From positions 372,001-436,000 of the forward strand of contig NZ_CP007588.1 in the NCBI RefSeq assembly GCF_000732905.1: a DNA stretch of 64,000 bases. The letters are read 5' to 3'. Positions 16,967-47,334 of this stretch are shown here, in pieces. The position numbers were made by a program, and so were the translations under genes. How positions within the stretch are numbered: position 1 is the first letter of the stretch; each line of letters begins with the position of its first letter. The notes under the pieces were generated by a model, which made no database searches, was not told where the DNA came from, and was given only the letters and a program-made list of their open reading frames with translations. This stretch comes from Weissella tructae (GTDB lineage Bacteria > Bacillota > Bacilli > Lactobacillales > Lactobacillaceae).

Positions 16967-18304
16967 ATGGGATTATTTGATTTTCTGAAAACACCAAAGC
17001 AACCAGCACAACCTAAGGTTGAAGTTGAAATTTTGTATCCACGTGCATTGAATGAAGATGTTAACGCTGAGCTAGCCGAAGTAGTGGTCGTTGAATTGCT
17101 ACCAACACCTGGCATGGCCGTTGAAATTAAATTACCAACTGAAGAAGTGGCACCAGTGATGCCGATTGTTCCGGAAGAAATTGTGGTGGTAGAACTACAA
17201 CCAACACCGGGGATGGCAGTAGACGTTAAGTTGCCAACTGAAGTAGTTGAAGAAACACCAGTCATTGAAGACACTACAGAAGCAGAAGCAGAAGCAGAAG
17301 CAGAAGCAGAAGCAGAAGCAGAAGCAGAAGCAGAAGCAGAAGCAGAAGCAGAAGCAGAAGCAGAAGTTGTCAGTGATACTAATTTGGAAGCTGGATTGAC
17401 GAAGACACGTAAGACATGGGCAGATCGTTGGAATCAATTTATGTCTAACTTCCGAAGTGTTGATGAAGACTTCTTTGATGATTTGGAAGAAACATTGATT
17501 GGTGCCGATGTTGGGGCCAAGACAGCCTTGCAACTGACGGATGAATTACGTGATGAAGTGAAGCTGAAAAATGCGAAGAGCAAGCAAGAAGTTTCACGTA
17601 TCATCATGGACAAGTTGATTGCACTGTACCAATCACAAGGTATCGATGAAGATACAAGCATGCATTTTGCCCCTGAAGGACCAACAGTAATCATGTTTGT
17701 TGGTGTTAATGGAGTGGGAAAGACAACAACGATTGGAAAGTTGTCTGCACGCTATAAGGCCGAAGGTAAGAAAGTCGTCTTGGCTGCAGCGGACACATTC
17801 CGTGCCGGAGCGACTGAACAACTAGAAGAATGGGGCCGTCGCAATGACATTCCTGTTGTGAGTGGTAAGCCACAAGTTGACCCAGCATCTGTTGTTTATG
17901 ATGGTGTTCGTACTGCAATTGATACACAAGCAGATGTTTTGTTTGTTGATACGGCTGGTCGTTTGCAAAACAATGTGAACTTGATGCAAGAATTGGCAAA
18001 GATGAAGCGTATTATTTCGCGTGAATTACCCGCTGAACCACAAGAAGTGTTGTTGGTATTGGATTCAACAACCGGGCAAAATGCCTTGCAACAAGCACGT
18101 TTGTTTAAGGATTCAACTGACGTCACTGGAATTGTTCTAACAAAGCTTGATGGAACTGCTAAGGGTGGAATCATCTTGCCAATTCGTAATGAATTACATT
18201 TGCCAGTTAAGTGGGTTGGTCTGGGTGAACAAGTGGGTGACTTACAACCATTTAAGGCAGATGAGTTCACTAAGGGCTTGTTTAGTGGTTTAATTGAGGA
18301 GTAG
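16967..18304 (+). CDS. ftsY: Signal recognition particle receptor FtsY
   Basis: SRP receptor GTPase that docks ribosomes to the membrane for co-translational insertion. 445 residues. An acidic A domain (1 to about 140) contains two copies of [17 protein letters not shown] and then 14 perfect Glu-Ala dipeptides encoded by (GAAGCA)14. The N and G domains follow: P-loop GVNGVGKTT near residue 245, [17 protein letters not shown] and GLGEQVGDL. The EA tract is unusual and probably length-variable; it would keep the frame since the unit is 6 bases. Position between smc and ylxM-ffh is standard. Confidence 0.96.
17279..17362 (+). repeat. Hexanucleotide microsatellite (GAAGCA)14 in ftsY
   Basis: Fourteen perfect, uninterrupted copies of GAAGCA coding Glu-Ala in the acidic linker of FtsY. 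A slipped-strand hotspot; changes in copy number keep the reading frame. Confidence 0.98.
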
Positions 18305-36597: not shown

Positions 36598-36601
36598 GAG
36601 A

Positions 36602-36673
36602 TAGCCCATCAGGGAATTGAACCCTGGATGCCGGTGTGAAAAACCGGAGTCTTAACCACTTGACCAATGGGCC
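36602..36673 (-). tRNA. tRNA-Glu (UUC), copy 4 in transcript order
   Basis: 72 nt. Anticodon stem CCGGT/ACCGG with loop TTTTCAC gives UUC. Acceptor type GGCCCAT. CCA not encoded. The body is identical to the three other copies. Confidence 0.94.
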
Positions 36674-36693
36674 AGGCTTGTTTTAAAAACAAA

Positions 36694-36765
36694 TAGCTCA
36701 TCAGGGAATTGAACCCTGGATGCCGGTGTGAAAAACCGGAGTCTTAACCACTTGACCAATGAGCC
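36694..36765 (-). tRNA. tRNA-Glu (UUC), copy 3
   Basis: 72 nt, same body; acceptor type GGCTCAT with matching 3' side, a compensated change compared with copies 4 and 2. Confidence 0.94.
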
Positions 36766-36779
36766 AAAATATCGAGCAA

Positions 36780-36851
36780 TAGCCCATCAGGGAATTGAAC
36801 CCTGGATGCCGGTGTGAAAAACCGGAGTCTTAACCACTTGACCAATGGGCC
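36780..36851 (-). tRNA. tRNA-Glu (UUC), copy 2
   Basis: 72 nt, acceptor type GGCCCAT. It repeats the pattern of copy 4, 178 bases away. Confidence 0.94.
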
Positions 36852-36873
36852 GATAGTTTGTTTTAAAAACAAA

Positions 36874-36945
36874 TAGCTCATCAGGGAATTGAACCCTGGA
36901 TGCCGGTGTGAAAAACCGGAGTCTTAACCACTTGACCAATGAGCC
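36874..36945 (-). tRNA. tRNA-Glu (UUC), copy 1 in transcript order
   Basis: 72 nt, acceptor type GGCTCAT. The upstream spacer TTGTTTTAAAAACAAA is also found between the other pair, showing that a two-gene unit was duplicated. Confidence 0.94.
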
Positions 36946-36977
36946 ATGAATGTTGCATGTCTTAAACAACAGAGATT

Positions 36978-37112: not shown

Positions 37113-38660
37113 ATGAATCTTTTACGTTGGATGTTGGATAGACATGAACAAGAAGTATTGGAGTTGCATGACTATTTGATATTGCATGAAGGGGAAAAGC
37201 TGTTACTTAAGACAGTGATAGAAGAATTGGGATGGTCACGATATCGTGTTGTGACTGCATTTAATAGTTTAATCGATGATCTGAACTTAGTTGATCAACA
37301 TGCGGTGTCAGAAGAAAAGTTTATTTATGACACGAAATATATTGAAGTAAAAAAGCAAAATCAAGCAGCTGTTTTAGAATTAGAACATTATTACCGCCAA
37401 AATTCAGTTATTTGGTGGTTCTTAGTTGATAGCTTAATGGAAGATGTTACATCATATGAAAACTTTGCTGTGAAACATAATACCAGTGTGTCTGTCATTC
37501 GTTCATCTAAAGAACGTGCGACTGAAGCACTAAGCAAGCATGGCATTAAGATTACCAAGAATAATCATTTGGTGGGAGATGAAGCAACGCTTCGTACATT
37601 CTTTGTTCATATTATGAATCAGTATCATAGTTATACTGAAATGCCATTGGATGAATTCGAAAATGACGAAATTGAAGATATTGTGGATATTGTGGTAGAT
37701 ATCTTTGATATCGAGAACCGTCAATCATTGCGTCAGTCACTTCGTATTCAAGTGATGATTGCGATTATTCGTATTCGAAAAGGACATTATCTACGCGATG
37801 TTGATATGCCAAAAATTGTACGTCCGTCTGATGAATGGCCACCAGATCAAAAAATTCGATACCAAAAGTATCGTGCATTATTCCAGGAGACATTTGACTT
37901 ACCAGAACACGTCATTCATACAGAAGTAGTGTTCAGTATTTTAAGTTTATTTGTTAGTGGGATTATTCGCGATGCACCTCGTGGGGTATTGACGGATAAG
38001 ATGCGTAAGCATTTTACAGAAGACCGTGAACGTTTTGTACATCGTTTTGAGCAATTCTTTGGGAAGGAATTGCCAGACGAATATCAATATCGTTTGAGTC
38101 TTGCTTTAGCAGGACCAAATATGCGACAAGCATACTTTGAAAACACCTATGATCGTAAACGTCATAGTATGCAGTTCTTAGAAGAGAACTTTCCGATTCA
38201 GTCGCGTTTCATTGACTGTGTCATGGCGGATTTCAAACGAGAACGTCTTTCTTGGACGCCGAATGCTGATCGTAAGGTAGAAAATCTATCGCAAGAATAT
38301 TTCAATGCGATGGTTGCCATTGTTCCAGCAGATATGATTTTACCTAAAATTCATATTGCGTTGGATTTCTTATATTTCCCAGGACTAGAAACTGTCTTGC
38401 GTCGTATTTTTGAAAGCCAATGGCAAATTAATTTTGTGTTTAATGAAATTGAGGATCCGGATTTTTACATTTCAGACATGGAATTAGACACTTTCGAAAA
38501 TACAAAAGCATTGGTTTGGACTACTTTCCCGGATGCATCTACATTAGGTCAATTTATTAAAGAAGCGATGGCACTAAGTGAACGTAAGTTCTTAGAACAG
38601 CGTAATGTGGATAATTGGGAAGAGTTAACGGCTCAATTGGCGCCGAAAGAAGTTGAATAG
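37113..38660 (+). CDS. Mga-like transcriptional regulator
   Basis: A 515-residue protein of the Mga/AtxA type. The N-terminal part has a winged HTH (LLLKTVIEELGWSRYRVVTA) and a second HTH (NTSVSVIRSSKERATEAL region); the middle resembles PRD domains and the C-terminal part an EIIB-like fold. In streptococci Mga controls surface adhesins and M proteins; here two large surface-protein genes follow, so control of them is a fair inference. No PRD histidines could be assigned with certainty. AGGGAG precedes ATG 37113. Confidence 0.78.
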   Translation: MNLLRWMLDRHEQEVLELHDYLILHEGEKLLLKTVIEELGWSRYRVVTAFNSLIDDLNLVDQHAVSEEKFIYDTKYIEVKKQNQAAVLELEHYYRQNSVIWWFLVDSLMEDVTSYENFAVKHNTSVSVIRSSKERATEALSKHGIKITKNNHLVGDEATLRTFFVHIMNQYHSYTEMPLDEFENDEIEDIVDIVVDIFDIENRQSLRQSLRIQVMIAIIRIRKGHYLRDVDMPKIVRPSDEWPPDQKIRYQKYRALFQETFDLPEHVIHTEVVFSILSLFVSGIIRDAPRGVLTDKMRKHFTEDRERFVHRFEQFFGKELPDEYQYRLSLALAGPNMRQAYFENTYDRKRHSMQFLEENFPIQSRFIDCVMADFKRERLSWTPNADRKVENLSQEYFNAMVAIVPADMILPKIHIALDFLYFPGLETVLRRIFESQWQINFVFNEIEDPDFYISDMELDTFENTKALVWTTFPDASTLGQFIKEAMALSERKFLEQRNVDNWEELTAQLAPKEVE

Positions 38661-38678
38661 TTATTATATAAATATATA

Positions 38679-38714
38679 AACGGTAACGAACATTTTGTTT
38701 GTTGCCGTTTTTTT
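38679..38714 (+). terminator. Terminator of the Mga-like gene
   Basis: AACGGTAACGAAC / GTTTGTTGCCGTT (two G-U pairs) followed by seven T residues. Confidence 0.82.
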
Positions 38715-38971
38715 AATATATATTCTAATGATTTATTTTTATTCGTTGTATTTATATGCATTTTTATAATATTTGTTTCTTCGATTACTTATTATATAAA
38801 AGAATTAGATGTGTTTTTAAGTGTCTGTAGACTTATTGAAACGTTTTACTAGAAAAATAAATACAAAAAAAGATTATTTTAAATGTTTTATGTAGATTAA
38901 AAATTTTAAATAATGTATTATTTTGAGTGTAAGAACGGGAAATGTATGTAATGTATAAAAGGAGATTTCTA
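38715..38971 (+). other. AT-rich upstream region of lectin-type gene
   Basis: About 255 bases, very A+T-rich, with no gene. It holds the 13-mer TTGAAACGTTTTA at 38836-38848, an AAAGGAG ribosome site (38958-38964) and no clear -35/-10 pair. Its base composition differs from its neighbours and could bind the Mga-like regulator. Confidence 0.5.
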
Positions 38972-41900
38972 ATGGGATTTAAAATGTATAAGGCTGGTAA
39001 ATTTTGGGTATTTAGTGCAGCTGTTTTGACTGTCGTGGGTGCGGCAGGTGTAATGGATGCGAATAGTCAAATTTACGCGAATTCAGAAGCGACGCAAGGT
39101 GGGCAACTTGCAGCGACTTCAAAAGAATTAATTGTTAATAAAGATAATTTTGAAGAACATTTCAATATTAACGGGGCAGCAACGTATGATAAAGATACGG
39201 GAATTGCAACCCTAACGCCATTCCAACAACGTGTTTCTGGGAATATTTCTATGAAACATAAGTTTGATGCAACGCAAGATTTCTCTATTTCTGGAGAAAT
39301 TAATCTAGGAGCGAATAAGAACGGGTCTGGAATCAGTGGGTCTGGAACAAATCGTGGTGGTGATGGAATCGGAATTTTGTTCCACCCAGGGGATCCTAAA
39401 GTTGTTGGTGGAAAAGGTGGAGCTATCGGAATCGGTGGTGTACCAAATGGATTTGGATTTAAGTTTGACACATATTGGAATCGAAATGATTCAAACGCAG
39501 CTGATGCTTGGGCAGTAAAAGACCCTAAGACAAATGCTGCTGGGGAGAGCTTAGAACTAAAGTCTTTTGGTGCATTCGTTAAGAACCGAGCAGATAATGC
39601 TGCGGAAACAGTTGTAGAAGCAGGAACGGCTGACCCTAAGTTAATTGGAGAACCGGATGGAAACACATTCAAGCCGATGGAACTTAAGTATACTGCTGCA
39701 ACAAAGACTTTGACTGTGACTTATGAAGGAAAGACATGGTCACGATCAATCGCAGACTGGATTACGCAAGATGAATTGTCATTTGCTATTTCTGCATCAA
39801 CAGGGCCAGCGTTGAACCTACAACAATTCCGTATGAACGAATTGCGTATGACACAAAATGTGCCAGAAACACCAACGCGTCCGGTAGATGAAAAGGGAAA
39901 TCCAATTGAAGTTCCAGCAGATAAGACAATGCCAATTGTTGATGGATTCCCAGGTGATGAAGTTGAAATTGATATTAAGGATATTCCTGATATCCCAGGA
40001 TACGATAAGCCGGTAGCTGATGAAAATGGTAAGGTGAAAGTTAAAGTTCCCGAAGCAGGAAAGATGATTGACTTACCATATACTGAAAAGTCAACACCAA
40101 CACGTCCAGTGGATGAAAAGGGAAACCCAATTGAAGTTCCGGCAGGAGAAACAATGCCAGAAGTAAAGGGTGAACCAGGAGACGAAGTTGAATTGAATGT
40201 TGATGACTTGCCAAACATTCCAGGTTACGAAAAGCCAAAGGGTGACGAAAATGGTAAGGTAAAGGTCAAGATTGTTGATGATGGTAAGGGTGGAAAAGTC
40301 TACGATGTAACTTACACTGAAAAGTCAACACCAACACGTCCTGTAGATGAAAAAGGAAACCCAATCGACGTACCTAAGGATACGAAGATGCCAGATGTGA
40401 AGGGTGAACCAGGAGACGAAGTTGAACTTGATGTAAATGAGTTGCCAGACATCCCAGGATACGCTAAGCCAGAAGCCGATGAAAACGGTAAGGTAAAGGT
40501 CAAAATCAAGGATGATGGTAAGGGTGGAAAGGTATATGACGTAACTTACGCTGAAAAGACAACACCAACACGTCCAGTAGATGAAAAGGGAAACCCAATC
40601 GACGTACCTAAGGATACGAAGATGCCAGAAGTAAAGGGTGAACCAGGAGACGAAGTTGAACTTGATGTGAATGACTTGCCAGACATCCCAGGATACGCTA
40701 AGCCAGAAGCCGATGAAAACGGTAAGGTAAAGGTCAAAATCAAGGATGATGGTAAGGGTGGAAAGGTATATGACGTACCTTATACACAAGCTACACCAAC
40801 ACGTCCAGTAGACGAAAAGGGAAACCCAATCGACGTACCTAAGGATGCGAAGATGCCAGAAGTAAAGGGTGAACCAGGAGACGAAGTTGAGCTTGATGTA
40901 AATGACTTGCCGGATATCCCAGGCTACGAAAAGCCAAAGGGTGACGAAAATGGTAAGGTAAAGGTCAAGATTGTTGATGATGGTAAGGGTGGAAAGGTCT
41001 ACGATGTAACTTACACTGACAAGAAGACACCATCACGTCCAATCGACGAAAAGACTGGGGAAGAAATCAAGTTGCCAGAAGGTAAGACAATGCCTGAACT
41101 TGACGGAAAGCCAGGAGAAGAAGTTGAAATTGATGTGAACGACTTGCCAGACATCCCAGGATACGACAAGCCAAAGGGAGACAAGAACGGTAAGATCAAG
41201 GTGCAAATTCCAGAAGATGGAAAGCCAGCTGATGTGCCATACACACCAGCCGAAGATAAGAAGACACCATCACGTCCAGTAGATGAAAAGACTGGGGAAG
41301 AAATCAAGTTGCCAGAAGGTAAGACAATGCCTGAACTTGACGGAAAGCCAGGAGAAGAAGTTGAAATTGATGTGAACGACTTGCCAGACATCCCAGGTTA
41401 CGATAAGCCAAAGGGTGACGAAAACGGTAAAATCAAGGTGCAAATTCCAGAAGATGGAAAGCCAGCTGACGTGCCATACACACCAGCCGAAGATAAGAAG
41501 ACACCATCACGTCCAATCGACGAAAAGACTGGGGAAGAAATCAAGTTGCCAGAAGGTAAGACAATGCCTGAACTTGACGGAAAGCCAGGAGAAGAAGTTG
41601 AAATCGATGTGAACGACTTGCCAGATATCCCAGGATACGACAAGCCAAAGGGAGACGAAAACGGTAAGATCAAGGTGAAGGTACCAGAAGATGGAAAGCC
41701 AGCTGACGTGCCATACACACCAGCCGAAGACAAGAAGACACCATCACGTCCAGTAGATGAAAAGACTGGGGAAGAAATCAAGTTGCCAGAAGGTAAGACA
41801 ATGCCTGAACTTGACGGAAAGCCAGGAGAAGAAGTTGAAATCGATGTGAACGACTTGCCAGATATCCCAGGATACGACAAGCCAAAGGGAGACAAGAACG

Positions 41901-43327
41901 GTAAGATCAAGGTTCAAATTCCAGAAGATGGAAAGTCAGTTGATGTCCCATACACACCAGCCGAAGATAAGAAGACACCATCACGTCCAGTAGATGAAAA
42001 GACTGGGGAAGAAATCAAGTTACCAGAAGGTAAGACAATGCCTGAACTTGACGGAAAGCCAGGAGAAGAAGTTGAAATCGACGTGAACGACTTGCCAGAT
42101 ATCCCAGGTTACGATAAGCCAAAGGGAGACAAGAACGGTAAGATCAAGGTGCAAATTCCAGAAGATGGAAAGCCAGCTGACGTGCCATACACACCAGCCG
42201 AAGACAAGAAGACACCATCACGTCCAGTAGATGAAAAGACTGGGGAAGAAATCAAGTTACCAGAAGGTAAGACAATGCCTGAACTTGACGGAAAGCCAGG
42301 AGAAGAAGTTGAAATCGACGTGAACGACTTACCAGATATCCCAGGATACGACAAGCCAAAGGGAGACAAGAACGGTAAGATCAAGGTGCAAATTCCGGAA
42401 GATGGAAAGTCAGTTGATGTGCCATACACACCAAAGAAGAACACGACACCATCACGTCCAGTAGACAAGAACACTGGTAAGGAAATCAAGACAGACAAGA
42501 GTTTCCCAATCCTAGAAGGAAAGCCAGGAGAAGAAGTTGAAATCGACGTGAACGACTTACCAGAAATCCCAGGTTACGATAAGCCAAAGGGAGACAAGAA
42601 CGGTAAGATCAAGGTTCAAATTCCAGAAGATGGAAAGTCAGTTGATGTGCCATACACACCAAAGAAGAACACGGCACCATCACGTCCAGTAGACAAGAAC
42701 ACTGGTAAGGAAATCAAGACAGACAAGAGTTTCCCAATCCTAGAAGGAAAGCCAGGAGATGTTGTTGAAATCGACGTGAACGACTTACCAGAAATCCCAG
42801 GTTACGATAAGCCAAAGGGAGACAAGAACGGTAAGATCAAGGTTCAAATTCCAGAAGATGGAAAGTCAGTTGATGTCCCATACACACCAAAGAAGAACAC
42901 GACACCATCACGTCCAGTAGACAAGAACACTGGTAAGGAAATCAAGACAGACAAGAGTTTCCCAATTCTAGAAGGAAAGCCAGGAGATGTTGTTGAAATT
43001 GATGTGAACGACTTGCCAGATATCCCAGGTTACGATAAGCCAAAGGGAGACAAGAATGGTAAGATCAAGGTTACTATTCCTGAAAACGGAATGATTGACT
43101 TTGGTTACACACCAATTGAAGCTGGAAAGCCTGGTCAATCACAACAAAACAACAATGGTTCAAAGAACACACCTGACAACAACGCTCCTCAAAAGGGAAA
43201 GTCAAAGGGTGATGCAGCATATCCAAACACAGGATCAGAAACAAATGCACTTGTTTCAGCTCTTGGTGCAGCTATGTTGGCTTTGACAGGATTATTTGCA
43301 GGGTTGACTAAGTTGCGTAAGAAGTAA
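38972..43327 (+). CDS. Cell-wall-anchored L-type lectin protein with 14 repeats, YPNTG anchor
   Basis: A secreted surface protein of 1451 residues. The start MGFKMYKAGKFWVFS carries the KxYKxGKxW signal-peptide motif. Residues about 40-290 form an L-type lectin-like domain (FNINGAATYD, GGDGIGILFHPGD, GFGFKFDTYWN, ADAWAV). Fourteen repeats of 75-79 residues follow (39869 to about 43112), then a low-complexity part and a sorting signal: AYPNTGSE, hydrophobic segment, and tail TKLRKK. The sorting motif has Tyr for the usual Leu. Start ATG 38972 fits AAAGGAG by 7 bases. No sortase gene is nearby. Likely sugar-binding adhesin; the ligand is unknown. Confidence 0.88.
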   Translation: MGFKMYKAGKFWVFSAAVLTVVGAAGVMDANSQIYANSEATQGGQLAATSKELIVNKDNFEEHFNINGAATYDKDTGIATLTPFQQRVSGNISMKHKFDATQDFSISGEINLGANKNGSGISGSGTNRGGDGIGILFHPGDPKVVGGKGGAIGIGGVPNGFGFKFDTYWNRNDSNAADAWAVKDPKTNAAGESLELKSFGAFVKNRADNAAETVVEAGTADPKLIGEPDGNTFKPMELKYTAATKTLTVTYEGKTWSRSIADWITQDELSFAISASTGPALNLQQFRMNELRMTQNVPETPTRPVDEKGNPIEVPADKTMPIVDGFPGDEVEIDIKDIPDIPGYDKPVADENGKVKVKVPEAGKMIDLPYTEKSTPTRPVDEKGNPIEVPAGETMPEVKGEPGDEVELNVDDLPNIPGYEKPKGDENGKVKVKIVDDGKGGKVYDVTYTEKSTPTRPVDEKGNPIDVPKDTKMPDVKGEPGDEVELDVNELPDIPGYAKPEADENGKVKVKIKDDGKGGKVYDVTYAEKTTPTRPVDEKGNPIDVPKDTKMPEVKGEPGDEVELDVNDLPDIPGYAKPEADENGKVKVKIKDDGKGGKVYDVPYTQATPTRPVDEKGNPIDVPKDAKMPEVKGEPGDEVELDVNDLPDIPGYEKPKGDENGKVKVKIVDDGKGGKVYDVTYTDKKTPSRPIDEKTGEEIKLPEGKTMPELDGKPGEEVEIDVNDLPDIPGYDKPKGDKNGKIKVQIPEDGKPADVPYTPAEDKKTPSRPVDEKTGEEIKLPEGKTMPELDGKPGEEVEIDVNDLPDIPGYDKPKGDENGKIKVQIPEDGKPADVPYTPAEDKKTPSRPIDEKTGEEIKLPEGKTMPELDGKPGEEVEIDVNDLPDIPGYDKPKGDENGKIKVKVPEDGKPADVPYTPAEDKKTPSRPVDEKTGEEIKLPEGKTMPELDGKPGEEVEIDVNDLPDIPGYDKPKGDKNGKIKVQIPEDGKSVDVPYTPAEDKKTPSRPVDEKTGEEIKLPEGKTMPELDGKPGEEVEIDVNDLPDIPGYDKPKGDKNGKIKVQIPEDGKPADVPYTPAEDKKTPSRPVDEKTGEEIKLPEGKTMPELDGKPGEEVEIDVNDLPDIPGYDKPKGDKNGKIKVQIPEDGKSVDVPYTPKKNTTPSRPVDKNTGKEIKTDKSFPILEGKPGEEVEIDVNDLPEIPGYDKPKGDKNGKIKVQIPEDGKSVDVPYTPKKNTAPSRPVDKNTGKEIKTDKSFPILEGKPGDVVEIDVNDLPEIPGYDKPKGDKNGKIKVQIPEDGKSVDVPYTPKKNTTPSRPVDKNTGKEIKTDKSFPILEGKPGDVVEIDVNDLPDIPGYDKPKGDKNGKIKVTIPENGMIDFGYTPIEAGKPGQSQQNNNGSKNTPDNNAPQKGKSKGDAAYPNTGSETNALVSALGAAMLALTGLFAGLTKLRKK
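39869..43112 (+). repeat. Fourteen tandem 75-79-residue repeats in lectin-type protein
   Basis: Units start at 39869, 40094, 40328, 40562, 40793, 41027, 41264, 41501, 41738, 41975, 42212, 42446, 42674 and 42902. Units 1-5 (DEKGNPI type), 6-11 (DEKTGEEIKLPEG type, 237-base period) and 12-14 (DKNTGKEIKTDK type, 228-base period) form three groups. Shared core: RPVDE-G-I, MP-G-PG-EVE, DLPDIPGYDKP, NGKIKV, DVPYT. Near-identity within groups shows recent expansion. Confidence 0.95.
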
Positions 43328-43404: not shown

Positions 43405-43716
43405 AATTAATTATAAAAGTCGTACAAAAATATTGTTTTAAATATTTGAAACTGGCAGTTATATGGTAAAATGTAATGTGTGATAATAGTATTGTTTGTT
43501 ATTAATGTGTTACATGGGAATGTGACGCGTATAACAGAAAGGGGTGTTTGTTAGTATAATGGGCATTGGGTAAGGGACGTGTATTTGTTAGATGGGATTT
43601 AACCTGACAAATACATTTGAATATTGTAGTTGTTGCTATTTCAGCCGTGTAATTCACGTCTGGCAGGGGCAATCTATGATTTTTTGTAGGATAATATGTT
43701 TACGAAGGAGAAGTAT
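43405..43716 (+). promoter_or_regulatory. Long leader of the MucBP gene with strong hairpin
   Basis: No gene is seen. An extended -10 (TGG-TAAAAT) lies near 43463-43471. About 240 bases of leader follow. It contains a 12-bp stem TGTATTTGTTAG / CTGACAAATACA (43580-43615, 12-base loop) with no T run, a smaller stem CGTG-TAATT-CACG near 43653, then AAGGAG and the start. A regulatory leader is suspected. Confidence 0.45.
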
Positions 43717-46700
43717 ATGGCGAAGAGCATTAAGAAAATGTTCATTATCATGATGGCAATGGTATTGTCATTCTCAGGTGTACCGGCCTCAGTATTTGCG
43801 GCTGATTTAAACCCGGGCGATTATGTTGATAAAGTGCAATATGGAAAAGAAGAAGTAACTTCAGGTGACTATGTCAGTTTGAGAGTTGACTTTAATGAGA
43901 AGGGTGTTGAAGGAGAACCTGGAGCGAAATTATTCGCTGCAGGGGACACTGTTACACTACCCCTACCACCAGAACTAAAGGCATTGAAGCAAAACATCAA
44001 ATTAGGAGAATATGGTGAAGTTGTTGTGACTGGTGACAAAATGGTCATCACGTTTAACGACAAAGCCACAACGATGGAACACATCAAGGGATACTTCGAA
44101 ATTGAATTGTTTGTGGAACGTGTTGAGGACGGATCAGAACAAGATGTTGTTGCTGATTTGAACACAGGACTGGGAACAAAGTTGAAGGTCAAGGGATACC
44201 CAATTCGTGAAGGTGGCGAAGAAGGTGAACGTGGTCGCTACGACTTTGGATACAAGGGTGGAAACGTTAACCGTGATGAACCAACAATTATTGATTGGTA
44301 CATTGTTGCTAACGCAAACCAAGACGAATTGAATGATGACATTATCATCAAGGACGTTTTCGGTGAAGGTCAATCAATGGTGGATGGTACATTTACAATC
44401 ATGTACGAAAAGCCAGAAGAAGCTGAAGGTATCAAGTTTGTTCCAAACGGAAGTGGATTTGATCTTGTAATCAGCAAGGACTTCGCAAACAAGCGTTCTG
44501 TTCAAATGAGTTACCAAACAAAGATTAATGACGATTCTAAAAAGCAAAAGATTTTTAAGAATGAAGCAGAAATTAAGTTTGACTCAGCTATCGATGGTAA
44601 GGGTGAATTTACTGCTAAGAGTGAAGTTCAAAACCGTTTGTCAGTAGACGGTGGTGCTGAAGGTGATCAAGTATTCGAATTGGTAGTTGAATATCAAGAC
44701 GAAGACGGAAACACAATTGCCCCTTCAACTGCACCAAAGGACTACACGGACGGTGCAGACTACACAACTGATCCTATTGACATTGACGGATACGAATTTG
44801 TGAAGGTTGATGAAAACAATGACCCACAAAACGGAAAGATCAATGGTAAGGACGCCAAGGTTATCTACGTCTACAAGAAGAAGGCTGAAGAACCAAAGCA
44901 ACACAAGTTGGACGTAATCTATGTTGACGAAGAAGGTAATGAAATTTCAGAACCTGACGAAACAAAGACATTGGATGACAAGTCAGATTACAAGACAACA
45001 CAAAAGGACATCGACGGTTACGAATTCGTAAAGGTTGACGAAGAAAACGGTGACAAGGCCAACGGAACAATCGATGGTAAGGACGCCAAGGTTATCTACG
45101 TCTACAAGAAGAAGGAAGAACCAAAGCAACACAAGTTGGACGTAATCTATGTTGACGAAGATGGTAAGGAAATCGCACCAGCTGATGAAACAAAGACATT
45201 GGATGACAAGTCAGATTACAAGACAACACAAAAGGACATCGACGGTTACGAATTCGTAAAGGTTGACGAAGAAAACGGGGACAAGGCCAACGGAACAATC
45301 GATGGTAAGGACGCCAAGGTTATCTACGTCTACAAGAAGAAGGCCGAAGAACCAAAGCAACACAAGTTGGACGTAATCTATGTGGACGAAGATGGTAAGG
45401 AAATCGCACCAGCTGACGAAACAAAGACATTGGATGACAAGTCAGATTACAAGACAACACAAAAGGACATCGATGGTTACGAATTTGTAAAGGTTGACGA
45501 AGAAAACGGTGACAAGGCCAACGGAACGATCGATGGTAAGGACGCCAAGGTTATCTACGTCTACAAGAAGAAGGCCGAAGAACCAAAGCAACACAAGTTG
45601 GACGTAATCTATGTTGACGAAGATGGTAAGGAAATCGCACCAGCTGACGAAACAAAGACATTGGATGACAAGTCAGATTACAAGACAACACAAAAGGACA
45701 TCGATGGTTACGAATTTGTAAAGGTTGACGAAGAAAACGGTGACAAGGCCAACGGAACGATCGATGGTAAGGACGCCAAGGTTATCTACGTCTACAAGAA
45801 GAAGGAAGAACCAAAGCCAGAAACAAAGCCAGAAACAAAGCAACACAAGTTGGACGTAATCTATGTTGACGAAGATGGTAAGGAAATCGCACCAGCTGAT
45901 GAAACAAAGACATTGGATGACAAGTCAGATTACAAGACAACACAAAAGGATATCGACGGTTACGAATTCGTAAAGGTTGACGAAGAAAACGGTGACAAGG
46001 CCAACGGAACAATCGATGGTAAGGACGCCAAGGTTATCTACGTCTACAAGAAAAAGGCCGAAGAACCAAAGCAACACAAGTTGGACGTAATCTATGTTGA
46101 TGAAGAGGGTAATGAAATTTCAGAACCTGACGCAACAAAGACATTGGATGACAAGTCAGATTACAAGACAACACAAAAGGACATCGACGGTTACGAATTC
46201 GTAAAGGTTGACGAAGAAAACGGTGACAAGGCCAACGGAACAATCGATGGTAAGGACGCCAAGGTTATCTACGTCTACAAGAAGAAGGCCGAAGAACCAA
46301 AGCAACACAAGTTGGACGTAATCTATGTGGATGAAGAGGGTAATGAAATTTCAGAACCTGACGCAACAAAGACATTGGATGACAAGTCAGATTACAAGAC
46401 AACACAAAAGGACATCGACGGTTACGAATTCGTAAAGGTTGACGAAGAAAACGGTGACAAGGCCAACGGAACGATCGATGGTAAGGACGCCAAGGTTATC
46501 TACGTCTACAAGAAGAAGGCCGAAGAACCAAAGCAACACAAGTTGGACGTAATCTATGTTGACGAAGAAGGTAATGAAATTTCAGAACCTGACGCAACAA
46601 AGACATTGGATGACAAGTCAGATTACAAGACAACACAAAAGGACATCGATGGTTACGAATTCGTAAAGGTTGACGAAGAAAACGGTGACAAGGCCAACGG

Positions 46701-47334
46701 AACAATCGATGGTAAGGACGCCAAGGTTATCTACGTCTACAAGAAGAAGGTCGAAGAACCAAAGCCAGAACCAAAGCAACACAAGCTGGACGTAATCTAT
46801 GTTGATGAAGATGGTAAGGAAATCGCACCAGCTGACGAAACAAAGACATTGGATGACAAGTCAGATTACAAGACAACACAAAAGGACATCGACGGTTACG
46901 AATTCGTAAAGGTTGACGAAGAAAACGGTGACAAGGCCAACGGAACAATCGATGGTAAAGACGCCAAGGTTATCTACGTCTACAAGAAGAAGGTCGCAGA
47001 ACCAAAGCCTGAGCCAAAGCCTGAGCCAAAGCCAGAACCAAAGCCAAAGCCAGAACCAAAGCCTGAGCCAAAGCCAAAGCCAAAGCCAGAACCAAAGCCT
47101 GAGCCAAAGCCAGAACCAAAGCCAAAGGCTAACAACAAGCCAGCAGAAGGTAAGAAGACAACAGAAACAAAGTCAACTCCTTCTCAAAAGCAAGTTGAAA
47201 AGAAGTCAGAAGCTAAGAAGGGTGAATCTTTGCCTAACACTGGATCAAAGAAGAACATCTTCGTTTCAGTTGCTGGATTGATTCTTTTGATTGGGGCACT
47301 TGCATTTGCTATCCGTAAGCGTAAGCAACAATAA
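43717..47334 (+). CDS. LPXTG surface adhesin with collagen-adhesin-like head and 10 MucBP units
   Basis: A secreted wall protein of 1205 residues. Signal peptide: basic start, hydrophobic core FIIMMAMVLSF, and cleavage near VFAAD. Residues about 30-320 look like two Ig-like subdomains of the collagen-binding/SDR adhesin type (LFAAGDTVTLPLPPEL; TIIDWYIVANANQDEL). Ten MucBP domains follow, the first divergent and nine nearly identical. A Pro-Lys-Glu wall-spanning tract (PKPEP type) precedes SLPNTGSKK, a transmembrane helix and tail RKRKQQ. ATG 43717 fits AAGGAG by 6 bases. Likely mucus or matrix adhesin. Confidence 0.9.
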   Translation: MAKSIKKMFIIMMAMVLSFSGVPASVFAADLNPGDYVDKVQYGKEEVTSGDYVSLRVDFNEKGVEGEPGAKLFAAGDTVTLPLPPELKALKQNIKLGEYGEVVVTGDKMVITFNDKATTMEHIKGYFEIELFVERVEDGSEQDVVADLNTGLGTKLKVKGYPIREGGEEGERGRYDFGYKGGNVNRDEPTIIDWYIVANANQDELNDDIIIKDVFGEGQSMVDGTFTIMYEKPEEAEGIKFVPNGSGFDLVISKDFANKRSVQMSYQTKINDDSKKQKIFKNEAEIKFDSAIDGKGEFTAKSEVQNRLSVDGGAEGDQVFELVVEYQDEDGNTIAPSTAPKDYTDGADYTTDPIDIDGYEFVKVDENNDPQNGKINGKDAKVIYVYKKKAEEPKQHKLDVIYVDEEGNEISEPDETKTLDDKSDYKTTQKDIDGYEFVKVDEENGDKANGTIDGKDAKVIYVYKKKEEPKQHKLDVIYVDEDGKEIAPADETKTLDDKSDYKTTQKDIDGYEFVKVDEENGDKANGTIDGKDAKVIYVYKKKAEEPKQHKLDVIYVDEDGKEIAPADETKTLDDKSDYKTTQKDIDGYEFVKVDEENGDKANGTIDGKDAKVIYVYKKKAEEPKQHKLDVIYVDEDGKEIAPADETKTLDDKSDYKTTQKDIDGYEFVKVDEENGDKANGTIDGKDAKVIYVYKKKEEPKPETKPETKQHKLDVIYVDEDGKEIAPADETKTLDDKSDYKTTQKDIDGYEFVKVDEENGDKANGTIDGKDAKVIYVYKKKAEEPKQHKLDVIYVDEEGNEISEPDATKTLDDKSDYKTTQKDIDGYEFVKVDEENGDKANGTIDGKDAKVIYVYKKKAEEPKQHKLDVIYVDEEGNEISEPDATKTLDDKSDYKTTQKDIDGYEFVKVDEENGDKANGTIDGKDAKVIYVYKKKAEEPKQHKLDVIYVDEEGNEISEPDATKTLDDKSDYKTTQKDIDGYEFVKVDEENGDKANGTIDGKDAKVIYVYKKKVEEPKPEPKQHKLDVIYVDEDGKEIAPADETKTLDDKSDYKTTQKDIDGYEFVKVDEENGDKANGTIDGKDAKVIYVYKKKVAEPKPEPKPEPKPEPKPKPEPKPEPKPKPKPEPKPEPKPEPKPKANNKPAEGKKTTETKSTPSQKQVEKKSEAKKGESLPNTGSKKNIFVSVAGLILLIGALAFAIRKRKQQ
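44671..46995 (+). repeat. Tandem MucBP repeat array
   Basis: The divergent first unit begins at 44671; near-identical units begin at 44899, 45127, 45358, 45589, 45841, 46072, 46303, 46534 and 46777, mostly with a 231-base period. Two unit types alternate in blocks: EDGKEIAPADE and EEGNEISEPDA/E. Linkers of EEPK length vary (PETKPETK after unit 5, KPEPK after unit 9). Confidence 0.96.

Follow-up and report, generated by a model that had tools for sequence, protein, structure and literature searches.

A sortase-anchored lectin protein of Weissella ceti carries fourteen DUF5978 repeats that probably form its stalk

We analysed a stretch of 64,000 nucleotides (the window, whose numbering is used throughout) from the genome of Weissella tructae, called Weissella ceti in the literature cited here and below (contig NZ_CP007588.1, positions 372,001 to 436,000 of the forward strand; assembly GCF_000732905.1). 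An open reading frame (ORF) on its plus strand, 38942..43327, encodes a surface protein of 1461 amino acids (aa) in the order signal, SraP/YwfG-type lectin, stalk (aa 311 to ~1392) and sortase signal. The KxYKxGKxW signal peptide (aa 13-43; 38978..39070, plus strand) matches PF19258 at 29.8 bits (cut-off 23.6) and TIGR03715 at 24.6 bits (cut-off 18), and the L-type (legume) lectin domain (aa 65-299; 39134..39838, plus strand) matches PF18483 at 225.7 bits. The C-terminal sortase signal (aa 1420-1460; 43199..43321, plus strand), composed of YPNTG, a hydrophobic stretch and KLRKK, is recognised by TIGR01167 (19.1 bits, cut-off 15.9); PF00746 gives 18.4 bits at the same place, slightly below its cut-off of 20. 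The repeats between lectin and anchor belong to a stalk domain that is in the catalogues already, PF19405 (DUF5978), and the adhesin itself was apparently listed in 2015. Matches of the protein to DUF3048_C (40.8 bits, cut-off 25) and PITM1-3 (40.2 bits, cut-off 27.7) were rejected as repeat artefacts, each being the sum of many weak pieces of which no single stretch passes.

The original prediction, made from the sequence alone, described 14 repeats of 75-79 residues, and its count and coordinates hold to within 5 bases. We found 14 acidic tandem units running from 39872 to ~43117, spaced 75, 78, 78, 77, 78, 79, 79, 79, 79, 79, 78, 76 and 76 aa apart, with a last unit of ~71 aa. In hmmscan searches of Pfam, PF19405 matches the adhesin in 14 stretches with 1574.2 bits against a cut-off of 25, the best stretch covering positions 1-73 of 73. 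Taken singly, the units score 115.6-132.5 bits, 13 of them over positions 1-73 and unit 1 over 3-73. This full-length match to a named family disposes of the proposal that the repeat type may be undescribed. From the profile match and the spacing, the units, all on the plus strand, are placed at 39872..40096 (unit 1, a divergent first unit by DNA identity), 40097..40330 (unit 2), 40331..40564 (unit 3), 40565..40795 (unit 4), 40796..41029 (unit 5), 41030..41266 (unit 6, the unit modelled below), 41267..41503 (unit 7), 41504..41740 (unit 8), 41741..41977 (unit 9), 41978..42214 (unit 10), 42215..42448 (unit 11), 42449..42676 (unit 12), 42677..42904 (unit 13) and 42905..43117 (unit 14).

Tandem Repeats Finder reports two arrays, 40085-41207 (score 1372) and 41021-43071 (score 2833), at a threshold of 50. 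DNA identity is 82-95% within units 2-5, 91-96% within units 6-11, 98% between units 12 and 13 and 88-90% between unit 14 and those two, but units 1-5 share only 66-77% with units 6-14. These identities back the predicted step-wise expansion and, in the main, its grouping into 5, 6 and 3 units; because unit 1 diverges from every other unit (66-74%), the first group is better described as 1+4. Amplification in blocks is thus supported for units 2-5, 6-11 and 12-14, with the divergent unit 1 standing apart.

The name PF19405 falls inside the block PF19403-PF19408, six stalk-domain families constructed for the survey of fibrillar adhesins that Monzon et al. published in 2021, according to the parts of that paper used here (PMC8286594), which print the range; in a text search of the literature, no paper turned up that contains DUF5978 or PF19405 as a string. 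The same parts define a fibrillar adhesin by one or more adhesive domains combined with stalk domains, the adhesive end lying far from the anchor, and their proteome table lists 5 adhesin-like proteins among 1338 for W. ceti. The protein described here has this arrangement, with a lectin (aa 65-299) that we assign as the adhesive domain, distal to the anchor, and a stalk at aa 311-1392. The gene itself appears to be WS08_0360 of W. ceti WS08, because the adjoining protein (43696-47334) has 10 MucBP stretches, like the ten-domain WS08_0361. In the sections of the 2015 adhesin study available to us (PMC4687380), six groups of putative adhesins are distinguished in W. ceti; WS08_0360 is tabled as a 'hypothetical protein', its NC36 counterpart is named a platelet-associated adhesin in the text, and the adjoining WS08_0361 is reported as a MucBP protein with ten MucBP domains in WS08. 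Repeat number is given there as constant across strains for only two of the six groups, WS08_0071 and WS08_0583, so that the WS08_0360 group is listed among the adhesins with strain-variable repeats, but without unit counts. Thus, the lead towards a new repeat type is closed, since Pfam already holds an entry for the type, a putative stalk role is in print, and the gene apparently stands in the 2015 adhesin list.

A paralogue in the same genome (G000:C1, 514811-520231; L029:1312-6732) encodes 1806 aa with the same plan, 17 DUF5978 stretches and one Big_6 domain. Its lectin is 49% identical to that of the window protein over 230 aligned residues, its C-terminal tail shows 88% DNA identity to the tail of the window gene, and its last unit shows 87% DNA identity to unit 14. 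The paralogue's units come in two lengths, nine short and eight long, the first nine lacking a four-residue loop. Downstream of it, a further ORF (L029:7229-8500), which extends past the fetched stretch, starts with a KxYKxGKxW-like signal (FKMYKSGKSWVFSAS). The wider distribution was counted at E 0.001 or better in samples drawn from larger groups, with the source genome included in all three and some other genomes recurring. In the family sample, 9 of 251 genomes had DUF5978 matches, 5 of them exceeding the cut-off; in that of the order 5 of 395 did, with 2 exceeding it; and in that of the phylum 1 of 398 did, the source genome itself. None of the 10 other genomes of the genus listed in the family sample had a match, and three genomes of one other genus had 8 matches each. 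In these samples the domain is therefore rare outside W. ceti. A protein-pattern search of genome contigs confirmed one locus among 395 pattern stretches, in Lactobacillus colini, none of 57 pattern stretches was confirmed in viral contigs, and tblastn of plasmids gave no match. The L. colini locus encodes a MUB-type protein with three DUF5978 stretches (52.6 bits in all, cut-off 25) and as many of Muc_B2. The highest-scoring DUF5978 stretch (aa 958-1005) comes immediately after one of Muc_B2 (aa 853-956), and the other two likewise follow Muc_B2 as we place them by reading the sequence. In a genome from another family of the order (G735), locus L155 encodes tandem units of the form FVPVDPDNNPIPG-..-PGKPGD-..-PTIPGY at 21.7 bits. 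Because these score slightly below the cut-off of 25, they suggest that the family is wider than its Pfam model.

The repeat region is acidic and rich in Lys, Asp, Glu and Pro, as the original prediction had it, with an isoelectric point of 4.61, a net charge of -77 over 1082 aa and 52% Lys, Asp, Glu and Pro; Cys, Trp and His are absent. A composition of this kind would also suit a flexible, disordered wall spacer rich in Pro, Lys, Asp and Glu, but the P-GY, I, V and Y positions are kept across the units and the aligned distant relatives, and AlphaFold predicts the unit to be folded. The single-unit model, for which all but one of the 14 window units were aligned with three L. colini units (16 sequences), has a predicted local distance difference test score (pLDDT) of 93.2 and a predicted template modelling score (pTM) of 0.76, with 66 of 73 residues at a pLDDT of at least 90 and none below 70. 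We consequently consider a disordered spacer very improbable. The model contains four strands of at least 3 residues (2-6, 31-35, 55-59 and 67-72). In a three-unit model (pLDDT 92.9, pTM 0.64), a strand runs nearly straight from one unit into the next.

Structure comparison left the affinities of this predicted fold divided. Foldseek returned no match at E 0.001 or better for either model, which does not by itself imply a new fold; the best rows for the three-unit model, both weak, were an immunoglobulin-binding protein of Ruminococcus gnavus (E 0.012, template modelling (TM) score 0.21) and YwfG (E 0.024, probability 0.92, TM score 0.27). Sequence searches of solved structures with one unit and two profiles gave nothing credible; their only row below E 0.01, 3io3 (E 0.0014 over 34 positions), was taken as chance. 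With VIA-align, a single unit gave 8 rows at Z of at least 2 among 131 chains: C-terminal domains of SpaA-type pilins (3.9 and 3.4), the Pediococcus adhesion domain 2kyw (3.0), a transthyretin-like domain (2.6), fragments of SraP covering its beta-grasp module (2.9 and 2.5), and the MucBP domains 3q69 (2.8) and 3nz3 (2.1). With the three-unit model, pilins reached at best 4.6; among MucBP-type rows 2kyw came highest at 4.1, its match extending across more than one unit. All of these values are too weak to be decisive. The pilin domains at the head of both lists raise the alternative that the units are prealbumin-like stalk domains of the SpaA/Cna_B pilin type and not beta-grasp relatives of MucBP, and the paralogue has a SpaA match below threshold (17.1 bits, cut-off 23.1). 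However, 2kyw follows within about one Z unit, all these rows lie in a range where only common arrangements may match, the model has just four strands of the counted length, and the profile comparisons described next favour MucBP over SpaA. Pfam SpaA gave no match on the window adhesin. We regard a prealbumin-like unit as unlikely.

The repeats had been proposed as divergent relatives of MucBP, in a register of VDE-G-I, G-PG, DIPGY and a final Y-T that is indeed present in the units. Direct membership of MucBP is ruled out: Pfam MucBP (PF06458) matched neither the whole adhesin at E up to 1 nor any of five single DUF5978 units (two from the window, one from the paralogue and two from other genomes) at E up to 10. 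What stands of the proposal is a weaker link between profiles. After similarity reduction (DUF5978 units from 55 to 33; MucBP from 89 distinct stretches, of 176, to 76; Muc_B2 from 73 distinct, of 80, to 69), DUF5978 and MucBP were linked with a probability of 65%; the alignment took in 34 of 64 columns and followed the predicted register, as VDE-G-I / G-GD / GY. An earlier comparison of 11 with 8 sequences had given only 14%, and the result varies with depth. SpaA reached 13% over 20 columns and Rib, the other family named for checking, 0.3%; these two profiles are the fairer control, although they are only two families built from fetched loci. As yardsticks, Muc_B2 against MucBP scored 91% and MucBP against SpaA 2%. 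None of 200 column permutations matched the DUF5978-MucBP score, a lenient control since permutation destroys the natural order of a profile, and even the Muc_B2 comparison (3%) was equalled by just one permutation in 200. A distant kinship with MucBP is no more than plausible. Muc_B2, at 3-9%, was rejected as the closest relative.

The strongest similarity lies elsewhere in the MUB-type repeats, whose third module scored 97% against DUF5978 over 60 columns. Alone, this module scored 60-74% against Muc_B2 over 22-36 columns and only 10-22% against MucBP; it is nearer to Muc_B2, and therefore a poor fit to simple descent from MucBP. DUF5978 might be this small third module, amplified as a free-standing unit, and along with it a strongly diverged offshoot of the MucBP beta-grasp group, in which a linker between binding domains has been turned into a pure tandem stalk in W. 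ceti. We put this forward tentatively, as a possibility close to evenly balanced. The new element that remains is this suggested origin of DUF5978 by amplification of the third MUB module, together with its suggested distant relation to MucBP; the gain is small, and amounts to connecting DUF5978 with that module and, perhaps, with MucBP.

In phmmer searches the lectin finds its closest matches in SraP (4m01, E 6.4e-45) and YwfG (7yl4, E 1.3e-41), and it carries the motifs FDTYWN and GGDG and an STG loop, the DTYxN and GGDG/GADG positions being kept in the alignment. The calcium and mannose ligands of YwfG include Asp152, Tyr154, Asn156 and Asp117 in the parts of the structural paper used here (PMC9815576). 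By our own alignment, FDTYWN and GGDG correspond to the Asp/Tyr/Asn and Asp ligand positions. The domain thus belongs to the bacterial L-type lectins of the SraP/YwfG family and has the calcium-site positions, with one sugar-contact position different, and by analogy it would bind glycan in a calcium-dependent manner. The analysis also yields, for a pathogen of trout, a lectin whose sugar site is largely conserved.

Taken together, the data make it highly probable that the repeats are the DUF5978 stalk of a sortase-anchored fibrillar adhesin, four-strand units arranged head to tail as a spacer for a calcium-dependent SraP/YwfG-type lectin, with a length tuned by recombination. Each unit would fold as a small four-strand beta domain, with a short strand-like linker to the next, so that the stalk would be extended, acidic and free of cysteine. 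Anchored through its sortase signal, the protein would hold the lectin off the cell wall, and by analogy with SraP and YwfG the fourteen-unit stalk could be some tens of nanometres long. Recombination between near-identical units would alter their copy number and so adjust the length of the stalk; variation of repeat number between strains is on record for the adhesin group of WS08_0360, in the portion of PMC4687380 cited above. The paralogue with its 17 units on the same plan also speaks for a stalk.

Alternatively, the units themselves may bind mucus or antibody: as divergent MucBP-like repeats they would engage mucin glycans or immunoglobulin along the whole stalk and so provide avidity, with the lectin as a second site. 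The profile link to MucBP in its register, the DUF5978 stretches in the MUB-type protein of L. colini and the two weak Foldseek rows, an immunoglobulin-binding protein and YwfG, fit this possibility, and Mub-R5 and Mub-RV are reported binders of mucin glycans and immunoglobulin (PMC9815576, in part). Against it, none of the five single DUF5978 units scanned, two of them from the window, matched MucBP at E up to 10, and the beta-grasp module of SraP, which sits right behind the lectin, is described in the part of PMC4047093 used here as binding none of IgG, IgA and IgM and is taken as a stem. Adhesive repeats are therefore a doubtful explanation, although their possible binding counts among several points that weigh against the main reading. 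The pTM of the three-unit model leaves the relative placement of the units unfixed, and the alignments behind the two models were small and made up of similar sequences (16 and 8 rows). The literature and solved-structure searches turned up no experiment on the binding or the structure of DUF5978, and the consulted part of PMC4687380 gives no DUF5978 numbers per strain. In units 6-10, synonymous exceed non-synonymous codon differences in 4 of the 5 pairs counted, but over all 10 unit pairs compared they do so in only 5 (a raw count in which 3 pairs differ in length), and purifying selection on the units is therefore not demonstrated. Finally, Ala251, which contacts mannose in YwfG, aligns with Pro in the adhesin lectin (STG-PA versus STG-AF), so the bound sugar may differ from that of YwfG.

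Several other features lie in the window. The next gene (43696-47334, plus strand), apparently WS08_0361, encodes the protein with 10 MucBP stretches (PF06458, 393 bits; also SSSPR-51), a wall region rich in Pro, Lys and Glu and an LPNTG anchor, and has collagen-adhesin-like N-terminal matches that are weak and far below their cut-offs. Directly upstream of the adhesin on the same strand, 37113-38660 encodes an Mga-type regulator (PF05043; AcpB/EbpR/MafR family 81 bits, below the cut-off of 130), which is a candidate regulator of the adhesin genes; a terminator-like hairpin (38678-38710) lies 3′ of it. Four tandem tRNA-Glu(TTC) genes with a tRNA-Ser beside them occupy 36600-36946 on the minus strand. 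Further away, a perfect 15-copy hexanucleotide repeat (CAGAAG; 17277-17366, plus strand) codes for a run of Ala-Glu within the acidic N-terminal part of a 445-aa protein (16967-18304), which we take to be an FtsY-like GTPase; this is a possible length-variable tract.

Compared with known systems, the repeats differ in no important respect from PF19405, since all 14 units match the profile and share the tandem arrangement with an N-terminal adhesive domain and a C-terminal anchor. They resemble MucBP (PF06458) in the VDE-G-I, G-GD, GY and final Y-T register, in size (73 versus 63 model positions) and weakly in profile and fold, but give no direct profile match. With the third module of MUB repeats, which follows Muc_B2 as in L. 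colini (L046), they share DUF5978 stretches and the high profile score; in contrast, that module occurs as single copies between other domains and not in tandem, lacks the loop GDxNGK and carries an NDPxDPTK motif absent from DUF5978. YwfG of Lactococcus lactis (7yl4-7yl6) likewise presents an N-terminal L-type lectin, with an aligning calcium-site motif, on a repeat column, given as 600-650 angstrom in the part of PMC9815576 used here, but that column consists of one Mbp and four Mub repeats whereas the adhesin has 14 DUF5978 units, and Pfam Muc_B2 and MucBP_2 gave no match in the adhesin at E up to 1. SraP of Staphylococcus aureus (4m00-4m02) has the same lectin type, borne on a rigid stem of a beta-grasp module and two cadherin-like modules that projects it (PMC4047093, in part), with STG-GA in the sugar loop where YwfG has STG-AF and the adhesin STG-PA. 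Membership of the SraP class of serine-rich repeat glycoproteins was rejected, as Ser makes up only 1.7% of the repeat region and serine-rich repeats are lacking; unlike in that class, SecA2-SecY2 is reported absent from W. ceti (PMC4687380, in part). The resemblance to SraP is one of lectin and of a stem of beta domains.

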